NCBI RefSeq assembly: GCF_964204645.1
Contig: NC_134026.1
Span: forward strand, 7,006,001 to 7,070,000
Direction of reading: 5' to 3'
Source: Tubulanus polymorphus
Taxonomy: Eukaryota; Nemertea; Palaeonemertea; Tubulaniformes; Tubulanidae
DNA length: 64,000 nucleotides
Part shown: positions 30,001 through 42,000 of the stretch, piece by piece
How positions within the stretch are numbered: the first letter of the stretch is position 1
How the letters are laid out: every line of letters starts with the position of its first letter
Position numbers and translations under genes: made by a program
The notes under the pieces: generated by a model
Seen by the model: only the letters and a program-made list of their open reading frames with translations
Told to the model about the DNA's origin: nothing
Databases searched by the model: none

Positions 30001-33000
30001 CAGTTAAGAGGAATATAAAATATAAGTGCCGTTTTCTCTTGCCGGCGCTAAAATCAGAAAACAGATACGAAATAAGCGTCAAATTATTCTACTTTTCGTA
30101 CCTGACATCCCAGAATGTATTGACAGGTTTCTCTGGATTCCATTTCTCGATGTTGATCGGTTGATGCAAGACTAACAACGCTTTCATCGCTTCCTGCGAC
30201 ACGACGTACGGCATACTTTGTAGATGAACTAGAGAAACTAGACCATTTATCAGTTCTAACGTAGAACTCTGGATCTCATGACTGGCTTTACTAGGATTCT
30301 ATAAATAATCAGATAACATACAAATTATCAATCATCAGATACATTTATTTGACTCGCTTTGTCCCGGACATCAGTGCTGTCAACCGATCAAATTCCATTT
30401 AAGGATTAATGGTAGATTTATTAGGAATATTGAATGTTCCGATATGAATACAGCAAAACTATAAAAATTTTGGCTTTCACCAATTGAGAATATTTTGTTT
30501 TCAATCGGTAATACTTTTTCAGACATGCACGTTGTTTTCCCTGACTTGATCTGCTATAAGAATCCAATAAGTTAACAAGGTCAAATCGAAAGACAAAGAA
30601 ATAAACTGTTTGCAATTAGTGAACACGGTCAAATACGTAAGACATAGAAAGAAACTGTTTGATTCCATGTAGCCAAATCTAAACTCAGTGATTTGTAGAA
30701 TTTTATTTCTTTTTGATCCTGGTCATAGATTTGAACATAATGTTCAGAAATAAGGAGGATTTCTTCATGAACTAGTGATTTTAGGGTGATTCTATTTGTC
30801 ATCAAATTACAGGAGAAATGTTAAAGAATTCTTTCATTGAGAAGAGTAGAGTCACCAGTGTTTTCCCTATAGAACTGGACATTTCTATACAAAGACATAC
30901 TCCAACCTTTTTCAGATGTTTAACTATAATACATTTCATAATTTACAATGAATTCTTGTACAACATTTATTGATATTTCCTTTAGTTACACTTATATTTT
31001 GCACAATAATAAACTTTCACGTATTCTAAATGCATCGTATTAGATTTCAGACAATTAATTTTTTATTTTTTTCCTGTTAACAATAAAGCATACAAATGAA
31101 TTTTAGCGGTAACAAAGACTTTAATGATTTCTTTACATTAAAGTTAAATTAGTTTTCCAATAGGCCTATGGGGAGGCACGGCCAGTGCCAGAACGTTTCT
31201 CATACAGTCAGTACACTCTCACACAGTCAGTACATTCTTACAGTATTGATGACACAGTTAATCTTCGTGACTCATGAATCTAACTCAGATGCAGATTGGT
31301 GAAACTTATCACAGTTACATCGTTCTCATGTCTGTGGTAAACAGATCCGGAATCTACCGTACTGTGTCACTGGTCATTCTGGTTATCTTATTCTTCTTAG
31401 GAGCCTTCGGAAATTCAGCTACTTTCCTCATAATGATAAGTCGCAGATTCCGCAGTTTGTCCTACGCTAATTATCTTATCGTTTTGTCTCTCAGTGATTT
31501 GCTGTACTCTATTAATTATACATTGATACCTGTTTTACAGTTTGTTCTCCTTAATCTAAACATTGGTCCTATATTTATGATAACTTCACTGGTCGGTTGT
31601 CAAATCTACGAATTTGTAATGCAACTTGCGTGCAGCAATAGTTCGTGGTTGATAGTAGCAATATCTCTAGAACGTGCGGCAGTTGTGCTCTTCCCGTTCA
31701 CATCTCGTTTGATATGTACACCGAGATTCGCCAGATTTGCTACATTTATTATTACTGCAGTGAACGTAGTGGTTATAAATCTTCTACCAACTTTGTCGAT
31801 ACATTTTACCGACCAGTTTTTGGGATGTTACTATGAATTATCTGACAAAATAAGATTTCTGAGCATAATTGTCATTCACAGTAACATTCTACCTTTGTCT
31901 TTGATTCTAATATCAAATTCTGTTATAATAATTCAGTTATTCAGAGGTTCAAAAATGGTTTCGTCTGATCAGAAAACTACAAGATCAAAACGTACGACAA
32001 TAATGCTTGTAACTGTTTCACTCGCATTTGCGCTATTCACACTTCCAAACGCTATTAGTGCATTGTTACCAATCTCACCAGAACAGAAAGATTTTCTATA
32101 TGACATTGTCACACACTTTCATGTTTGTAACTTCGTCGTAAATTTCTACATTTATATTTTACTCGGACGAGAAATTCGTGAATATTTCTGTATGAAAATC
32201 TGCTGTAGAAATTCAGTGAAATAACCATTGATTTCAAGTAAGTTTGATTCACTTCATACAACTTTTTCAAATCTACACAAAACTGCTTATCAAGATCTCG
32301 CGGGACTAAAAATGTTCTCTGATAAAAGCGAATTTTGAGGCAGCCAGAGTGAAATGATTGCGATCACAATCTTTATTAGAATCAAAAGTCAACTTCCTTT
32401 TTTACTTCATCGGCAGCTCATTGGTCATCACACTAACCACACAAACCACCAAACATGGCAGAGAGAATCAGTGGAAGGAATGTATAACTCAACTTGGAAC
32501 GCCGGAGGGAAATTTAAAAGATTAGCAGCTATCATGCTTTTTACACTCTTTCCACTAGGCGACAGCATTAGCAGTTAACATATGGTCTAGTGGGAAGATG
32601 CTGAGCTAGTAATTTACTGGCCCGGGTTCGAGTCTCGCTCTATCCGCGCGCTTCATATTCTACTTATACTTTAAAGAACTCTCCTTATCATAGGAGACAC
32701 GTTTTAGTGTAGAAATTGGCTGGAAAAGAGTAAATGAATAATAATAATAATCAGCAGAATCTAAAAGGGTTTTTTGTGGTTTTTCGCGACATAGCAGAAA
32801 ACCCTAACAAAGAACAACGCATCCAGAAGGATCGACTGAGTAAACAGTTTACTTTTGAACACAAAAATCATTTTTCTCAGATTTGCAATTACATGTGAAG
32901 ATGATATCGTAGTGTTAAACACCACTGCATGTAGTAGGGCCCATTTTTAAAAAAATCATTATGCTGTCGGCTTCCAGCAGATTGCGAATATGCTTACAAA

Positions 33001-39000: not shown

Positions 39001-42000
39001 AAATCCGGATTGAAAATCATCTCCTTGTATATTGATGAACGAATGAACTGCAAATATTGTCCGGATTAGACCAAGATTCAGATTAAGCGGGTTCGACTAT
39101 ATAAGGATACAAGGTATATTGTATCAGGAATACTTACATGTAACATGAGAACTGGATCGGCGTGAATCAATCTGACAATATGCAACAACAAATCGCGGTA
39201 ACTCAGGCCTTCTTCTCCTTTCTCTTTGAATTTCAAACTTCCCGTCACTTTCTCGCGGAATGTCCAGCTCTGTGTGAAAAACTGCAACAATTATTTGAGA
39301 GTTTGGAACGTGATTTGAACCCTTGATCCGCGGTAGAGGCGCACACACACGCACACATATATATATATATATACACATTCAACTAACGATGGTTACACTA
39401 CGTACGTATGCCGGTAGAGCATAATCAACCATGCTTCAAACACAGGCTCCAGTCGCGGTATTCAACCCAGTTCCGAGTGGGACATCTAGCGAGCTCTGAG
39501 GTACCTAACTGGTGTTCTGAGGAGGGTGCCTAGCTGGCTCCCTTGCTTGCACACCCAAGGGGTACCTAGCTGGTTCTGTTAAGTCAGCTCTGAGTGGGGT
39601 ATCTAGCTGGCTTTCTGAGGGAGGTACCTAGCTGGTTCTGTTGGGCTAAGCCAGCTCTGAGCAGGTACATAGCAGACTTTCTGAGGTGGTACCTAGCCGA
39701 ATTTCTTTGGGGGGTTTCTAATTTTGAGGGGTTTCCTAGATTCGAACCCAACTCCTGAGGGGTCCCTATTTTCAACCTGGCTTTGAGTAGAATCATGAAA
39801 TAATAGAAATTCTCTCATAGTTCAAATAATTAAAAGATTTAGTTGAAGCAAGAATGGACGAATTGAAAACGAATTACGAGAGGTTTGTCTCATTTTATCA
39901 CTGTCAATAATCTCAACTAAACTTTGCGCAAAACACAAACGGAAACAGGACTAAATATACCCAAGCCTCATACAGTGACCTCACTATCTGTAACATCACT
40001 GCCTCTCTTGGTACACAAGGTCAACTAAACCTCCCTATTATCAAACTATGTTATACCGGAGATATTATTTCTAACTCCCAGATTCATCTTCTAAATACCT
40101 CTCTAACCTACCGGCAGAGGTTCTAGATCATCGCGAGAGAGGTCATAGAGGTATGTGACAGTATCGGGTCTAAATGGGTTAACAGTATCGTATTGATAAT
40201 GAACACAGCAGGATTGAGGGAGGATAGCGACAAGAGGAAGATCGACACACGAAGTGACCATTTCAAACATGAAGAAATATTCCAAAATCCAAGATAAACT
40301 TACACTCGATGATGGTCACCGTGTTTTACTGATCGAACAAAAGAGGGGGTAAAAGGGAGTGAGCTGGGGGGTTGGAGGGGGGAAGACTGACTGTATGAAG
40401 CGATGGTTGAACTATGCACTAAAACCCTCCACCACCTACCTTTAAATAACTGAATATATGCAATATACACAGGTGTGTGATGAACAGGTGAACATAATAT
40501 ATACGAGTATACGTAGTGTAGTGTGCACCAATGCCACTGGCTCATACGTGGTGTAGTGTGTACCAATGCCACTGGCTCAAGAGGGATTGATTGATTTGAT
40601 TGATTGATGGTGGTTATTAGAGGGGTGAGTTAGAGAACGAACACTGGACCTACAAACAACCAAAAAAACAAACTAAAACAATCGAAAATCATTCAGATTC
40701 ACAAATATCTATCGGAGACTCACCGATGACTCCATCGGTAAGTGTAGAGAGTCATCGGTGAGTCGTTAGTGAGTCATGGTGTTAATGCAGGTTATATTGT
40801 GAACAAGGTTTAAAATGCAGGTTAAAACAGTGATAGGATTGAATCAGCACGCAGCCCAACAGTTCGCACCGTTATTTGACTCTGGGATTTTATGAAATAA
40901 TTCACCGAACTGCAGAGTCAAAGTTAACAGCAAACTGTAGAACTAAATCTAAGTTTACATAGTTATCTGTTGTTTGTTAGTAGAATATTATACCATGCTT
41001 CAATAAGAGCAATTCAATTAGAGTAATCAGGTTATCCACTCCTGGACTTGGTTCCACAGTTCTCTCAGTTAGAAATAAAACCAATTTCAAACCCTTCGAG
41101 TCGAGCTGAACCACAGAACTGTCGAACTGAGTCCAAGATTTCGTAAATTACCGGGTTGAAATTGGACATTTGCTTCATTTACGTACAAACCCTTAACCAC
41201 CACCACCAGCAGCAGCAGCAGCTAGAGGACAGAGTAATAATTACCTGACTCATCCGTAATGGCGGGTGTGACAGCGCCCCCTGTGTCACTTTATTCAACG
41301 TATCAACGAACATGGTACGGAAAAACGCAGCTTTACTGTAGATGAAATCAATTTTCGGCCACCAAGGTAACCGCGTCTACAACGATCAGCATACAATGCA
41401 TTTAATAAGAAAATATGACGTCCATAAATTTTAAGTTTATTCGCAATCTTACGTAACTTTATTCTACTGCATCCGTTCGAACAATTATGGCTTAGATTTA
41501 ATACCAATTTTAAAGACCAGGACCCAGTTCCACAGTTCTGGGTTCAAATTTGACTCACGAGTTAACTCTAAACTCACAACTGTGGAACTGGATCCAGGGG
41601 CTGCAGTTGCTCAGAAGTTGGTTAAAGATAACGGCAAATAAATACCATAGCAAAAATGAACTTTTAATTGTAATTATGTCAACTATCCACTGGTTCTTAA
41701 GTTTTTGGACTTAACCCTGAAACTGGTTCTAAATTGTTACGTAGATTATCCAACACTCTTCAAGGCACATGTACACAGACACTCCGCAAAGACACCGACA
41801 CTCACTGACACACTCACCCGCGCACACCTTGCAGACGCACTTACCTGAGTGATGATTCGGTGAAGAGCATTGACTAGCACAAAATGAAAAGTAGATGGCG
41901 CCTGTTGATTGAGACAAACTTTCAGAATGTCGTTATTGTGAGGCGTAATTCGGAAACACGACACAAAACAATCAATCATTAAATCGATATCCTGCGAGAT

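Follow-up and report, generated by a model that had tools for sequence, protein, structure and literature searches.

A tandem array of three intronless rhodopsin-class receptor genes nested antisense in an NF1 intron of Tubulanus polymorphus

The stretch of DNA analyzed here, a window of 64,000 nucleotides from the nemertean Tubulanus polymorphus (NC_134026.1, positions 7,006,001 to 7,070,000), carries on its minus strand a gene for neurofibromin (NF1), the longest mapped intron of which harbours three intact and intronless genes of rhodopsin-class receptors (R1, R2 and R3). These genes follow one another head-to-tail on the plus strand, opposite to NF1, and a fourth, frameshifted relative (R4) sits in another intron of the same host (Table 1).

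The NF1 host gene and its receptor-bearing intron

The host gene was mapped by tblastn searches of the window with an approximate sequence of human neurofibromin as the query, keeping all rows with E<0.5. Of the 46 rows, 45 follow the human order along the minus strand, going from human residue 20 to 2437 as the window is read from 48457 down to 3429, and a single row breaks this order (9659-9567, E 0.38); at that threshold, the window shows no match to residues 1-19 or to the last 381 residues of the human protein. Independently of this query, the joined translations of the window exons flanking the receptor intron retrieved three distinct PDB sequences, all of them neurofibromin (E 1.8e-84). 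A Pfam scan of four NF1 exon open reading frames (ORFs) gave matches for two of them, to RasGAP (E 5.6e-20) and PH_NF1 (E 3.5e-25), and none for the other two. The identity of the host as neurofibromin is secure.

A list of 45 coding blocks was compiled from 44 of the 46 rows plus an ORF judged by eye (26534-26337), leaving aside the out-of-order row and the one at 47268-47089, some residues of which are also covered by 46884-46759. The receptor intron is bordered by the coding blocks 39269-39141 and 30298-30104, and its splice sites could be read at both ends (the slash marks the exon boundary): the donor CTCATGTTACAT/GTAAGTATTC at 39137 and the acceptor TTATTTATAG/AATCC at 30299. These limits are exactly those proposed in a preliminary description of the locus, whose numbering of the intron as the fourteenth found no confirmation, as ten blocks precede it in the list and the N-terminal exons were incompletely found. 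Its position corresponds to human residues 509/510, an exon boundary in the human gene as well. Among the 44 gaps between the blocks, counted from 48457 on, this one is the longest (8842 bp by block ends), followed by gaps of 4379 and 1978 bp, with a median of about 509 bp, and the two longest are those hosting receptors. The whole coding stretch of the three receptors (31274-37957) lies inside this single intron, as is the case for nested intronic genes, and the constraint on their proteins (see below) gives indirect support to their being independent transcription units. Plus-strand poly(A) signals are scattered within 31001-39137 (11 AATAAA and 9 ATTAAA).

Table 1. Positions of the receptor genes, repeat units, insertions and host introns in the window
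Feature	Position	Strand	Remarks
Host intron of NF1, 8839 bp	30299..39137	-	Human residues 509/510; GT donor at 39137, AG acceptor at 30299
R1, intact 316-amino-acid single-exon ORF	31274..32224	+	7tm_1 E 2.7e-15, 57 bits
R2, intact 316-amino-acid single-exon ORF	33680..34630	+	95% identical to R1; 7tm_1 E 9.1e-16, 58.5 bits
R3, intact 316-amino-acid single-exon ORF	37007..37957	+	85% identical to R1; 7tm_1 E 7.2e-15, 55.6 bits
5' flank of the R1 unit, 388 bp	30886..31273	+	Query of the blastn search for flank relatives
5' flank of R2	33346-33679	+	Relative of the R1 flank (blastn)
5' flank of R3, two parts	36029-36133 and 36704-36936	+	Relatives of the R1 flank (blastn)
Unit remnant, 5' flank not directly followed by a receptor	35361..35697	+	R1 5' flank matched at 71% identity
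Unit remnant, partial 5' flank without a receptor	38402..38505	+	R1 5' flank matched at 83% identity; no coding match after it
Transposon-like insertion splitting the R3 5' flank, 576 bp	36134..36709		11-bp terminal inverted repeats CAGGGATGAAA and TTTCATCCCTG
Second inverted-repeat element	38564..38823		Ends AGGACAATTGCC; relatives at 24866-25041 and 25232-25304
NF1 intron holding R4, 4382 bp	21956..26337	-	Second-longest of 44 gaps; donor CA/GTAAGTATCT, acceptor TTTTACAG/ATTTATT
R4, receptor relative, frameshifted between 23978 and 23996	23460..24403	+	46-49% identical; tblastn, two frames

Receptor copies, their constraint and the repeated units

The three receptor ORFs run from ATG to stop and, as had been described, are intact, intronless and opposite to the host; each of them exceeds the curated cut-off (30.5 bits) of the Pfam family 7tm_1 of rhodopsin-like receptors, with the domain spanning about residues 52-290. 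Their proteins are 82-95% identical and align over 316 columns without any gap. A search of PDB with R3 alone as the query gave four sequences at E values up to 1e-5, all of them galanin receptors 2 and 1, and the best match was galanin receptor type 2 (E 9.2e-10, 41.7 bits). Galanin receptors are the nearest solved relatives of R3, through a distant match that speaks of likeness and not of orthology. Searches of the window by tblastn with R1-R3 revealed no credible fifth copy beyond R1-R4, and a weak row on the minus strand (44689-44522, E 0.48) was taken as a chance match.

Of 948 nucleotide sites, 40 differ between R1 and R2, 111 between R1 and R3 and 125 between R2 and R3, mostly at third codon positions, and the ratio of non-synonymous to synonymous substitution rates (dN/dS) is below one for every pair in that order, either with the NG86 (0.21, 0.28 and 0.31) or the YN00 method (0.27, 0.29 and 0.32). 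In a neutral simulation, where an equal number of changes was placed at random in the first sequence of each pair (5000 sets per pair), no set of any of the three pairs had as few non-synonymous codons as observed, and the ORF was still open in 1489, 214 and 168 sets (same order of pairs). Family matches and simulation together exclude a chance origin of the ORFs. R1-R3 are under purifying selection, which has preserved their proteins during most of the period that followed their split. Synonymous divergence (NG86 dS) is 0.11 for R1/R2 as against 0.30 and 0.32 for the other pairs, which makes R1 and R2 the latest split. Between R1 and R3, non-synonymous change peaks at codons 66-133, with 0.17 per site versus 0.32 for synonymous change. 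The first 200 bp of these two ORFs appear more similar than their surroundings; gene conversion among copies is nevertheless unsupported, as codons 1-65, a segment picked after looking, do not show an unusually small number of synonymous differences (as low in 1992 of 10000 permutations).

Repetition in this intron goes beyond the coding sequences. The 5′ flank of R1 is 92% identical over 344 bp to the sequence upstream of R2, and 79% and 72% identical, in two parts, to that upstream of R3, whereas the 3′ flank of R1 recurs after R2 (83% over 133 bp) and R3 (77% over 216 bp). Around the ORF, R1 and R2 thus remain alike for 344 bp on the 5′ side and 133 bp on the 3′ side; between retrocopies, likeness would stop at the transcript ends, and these stretches could in part be untranslated region. 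Two further copies of the 5′ flank are found with no receptor behind them, and blast comparison gave no match to the receptor coding sequence between 34630 and 37007. Flanks repeated together with the genes, as well as the flank copies lacking a receptor, point to tandem duplication at the DNA level followed by decay, and not to separate retrocopies; the simplest reading would be a head-to-tail duplication of receptor plus flanking DNA, with some units having lost the receptor. Units and remnants cover 30886-38505, about 7.6 of the 8.8 kb of the intron, which is probably the reason for its length. The R3 flank was interrupted by the transposon-like insertion, which is flanked on both sides by AGTAAC (by eye), and the halves of the flank on either side match adjacent parts of the R1 flank. 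Relatives of the second inverted-repeat element sit in reverse orientation in the R4 host intron, and a short dispersed repeat is present in NF1 introns at 30513-30599, 22562-22648, 25811-25897 and 19373-19434 (82-88% identity over 64-89 columns).

As for the fourth relative, its presence in another NF1 intron, as previously suggested, was borne out, though its reading frame is broken; the preliminary description had not called it intact. At their widest, the tblastn segments of R4 (23460-23990 and 23984-24403) lie in differing frames: the first frame ends at a stop at 24008, and homology continues in another frame up to 24403, with no further stops in the homologous stretch as read in its two frames. 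The first 182 amino acids are recognized as 7tm_1 (E 5.5e-9, 36.3 bits), above the cut-off. When the R4 pieces are compared with R1, differences by codon position amount to 68/50/113 in one piece (171 codons) and 55/36/83 in the other (129 codons), and NG86 dS is saturated, so that no dN/dS ratio can be given and R4 must predate the three-copy array. Such a sequence is a young pseudogene, unless the frameshift stems from a sequence or assembly error.

Other features of the window lie outside the receptor-bearing introns. Upstream of the NF1 blocks, exons of a gene for the Grap2 and cyclin-D-interacting protein map at 58598-59814 on the minus strand (GCIP_C E 3.7e-11, GCIP_N E 1.2e-13). Within 61485-63412, also on the minus strand, there is a RING-finger-like ORF (zf-RING_2 E 1.1e-4, under its cut-off) and beside it an open frame of 461 amino acids, repetitive, charged and with no Pfam match; by resemblance, this region is perhaps an RNF25-like gene. 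Between NF1 blocks, an open frame of repeated protein units (6471-6914, minus strand) is probably a tandem repeat.

Origin of the receptor block

Taken together, it is very likely that an intronless receptor was multiplied by local tandem duplication of DNA within the NF1 intron, giving rise to ordinary nested genes whose nesting is a by-product. The process would start with a single-exon gene of a rhodopsin-class receptor that was already in the NF1 intron, or was inserted into it, on the opposite strand. This founder would have been amplified in place through tandem duplication of units including flanking DNA, after which three copies would have stayed intact under selection on their proteins, and other units would have shed the receptor. 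R4 would be an older and divergent relative, now frameshifted, in another intron. Each intact copy would be expressed from its own transcript as an ordinary membrane receptor, while the NF1 transcript would be spliced across the block, and the nesting would be a consequence of introns being long and of duplication in place, not a regulatory device. Several observations weigh against this picture. Canonical family A receptors carry the motifs DRY and NPxxY, and R1-R3, which share the 7tm_1 domain with rhodopsin-class receptors, differ from them by the degenerate motifs ERA and NFYIY in all three copies (read by eye in the alignment). The AlphaFold2 model of R1, built on a three-row alignment, has a mean predicted local distance difference test (pLDDT) score of 35.8, too poor to be used for a seven-helix fold. 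Moreover, nested pairs of Drosophila show a greater divergence of expression, which has been taken to support interference (PMC8467205) and speaks against a wholly neutral by-product.

Such divergence is also what would be expected if the receptor block regulated NF1, with plus-strand transcription lowering or reshaping the pre-mRNA through antisense overlap, intron retention or early termination, and with selection retaining the genes for that reason. The opposite-strand location of the receptor genes within an 8.8-kb intron would suit this possibility, as would the intron retention, exonization and cryptic polyadenylation that human nested genes can cause in their hosts (PMC3192792, whose protein-coding search comprised 31 tandemly arranged pairs). 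A review also judges it likely that a host and a gene nested in it on the other strand are inversely regulated (PMC4394429). However, constraint sits in the protein code, which would not be needed if transcription alone were regulatory. In aligned columns, R1 and R3 share no more than about 70-78% of their 300 upstream bp, the R3 flank took an insertion, and in mammals the divergence of expression of nested pairs is not statistically different from that of unnested ones, according to PMC8467205, all of which makes a regulatory role very improbable. Interference with the NF1 pre-mRNA or antisense overlap, as suggested in the preliminary description, may nevertheless occur, interference being documented in human hosts. 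NF1 could also be regarded as a recurrent host, in distant animal lineages, of opposite-strand membrane-protein genes because their transcription tunes the dose of neurofibromin, the block being an independent and tandemly amplified instance, but there is very little reason to believe so. The colonisation of NF1 introns claimed in the preliminary description calls for no peculiarity of NF1, as nested genes are usually short duplicates lacking introns that sit in long hosts, for the most part antisense to them (PMC8467205); what stands of that claim is the independence by place and gene families considered below.

Neither of the two remaining alternatives fares better. Single-exon ORFs would be expected if R1-R3 were retrocopies, that is, reverse-transcribed mRNAs inserted separately into NF1, though many rhodopsin-class receptors are naturally single-exon. 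The DNA common to both sides of the ORFs, their head-to-tail order and the flank copies without a receptor also make separate retrocopies highly unlikely, even if untranslated sequence may account for part of the common flanks, and even if the founder copy may itself have been a retrocopy. A misplaced block or a wrong copy number due to the assembly would find some echo in R4, whose frameshift could be a base error; but the numbers of differences among the copies and their bias to third codon positions, the remnants and insertions specific to single units, the clean splice sites at both ends of the intron and a window without any N leave an artefact as a scarcely credible explanation. Local tandem duplication of an intronless receptor is thus the preferred reading, and no new principle is needed for these NF1-nested receptors.

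Comparison with human NF1 and with nested genes at large

In human NF1, OMG, EVI2A and EVI2B share one intron while a further intron harbours the pseudogene AK4P1, each of them being on the opposite strand (PMC4394429). As in the window, several opposite-strand protein genes are thus gathered within one NF1 intron. The human nest lies presumably near residue 1591, as opposed to 509/510 here, and OMG, EVI2A and EVI2B, which are not tandem copies of one gene, belong to families unrelated to the receptors. The difference in intron and families, already pointed out in the preliminary description, indicates that both nestings are independent. Close to the human position, at about residue 1593, the NF1 gene of the window has an intron of 436 bp (12185-12620, with its splice sites read) in which the ORF list shows no ATG-initiated ORF of at least 150 amino acids. 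The receptor block gives a second and unrelated case of NF1-nested genes, through which the effect of nesting on an important host gene could be studied; searches of the open-licence literature for genes nested in NF1 or nested receptor genes listed no paper describing this case.

On a wider scale, internal genes are typically short, intronless, located in long hosts and often derived from duplication, and the annotated human nested pairs amount to 452 (4.4%), with simple pairs on opposite strands making up 74.3% in human and 77.8% in mouse (PMC8467205). For Drosophila, about 10% of the genes are given as nested (PMC4394429) and about 6% as intronic (PMC3786989). The receptor block fits this known pattern on every count, its genes being short, intronless, duplicate-derived and on the opposite strand, and it clearly illustrates the expansion of a family A receptor by tandem duplication within the intron of another gene, an expansion that probably enlarged that intron. 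Tandem multiplication is what sets these receptors apart from the usual nested gene, with a parallel in the human MOB2 gene, which holds KRTAP5-1 and five other KRTAP5 paralogues within a single host (PMC4394429).

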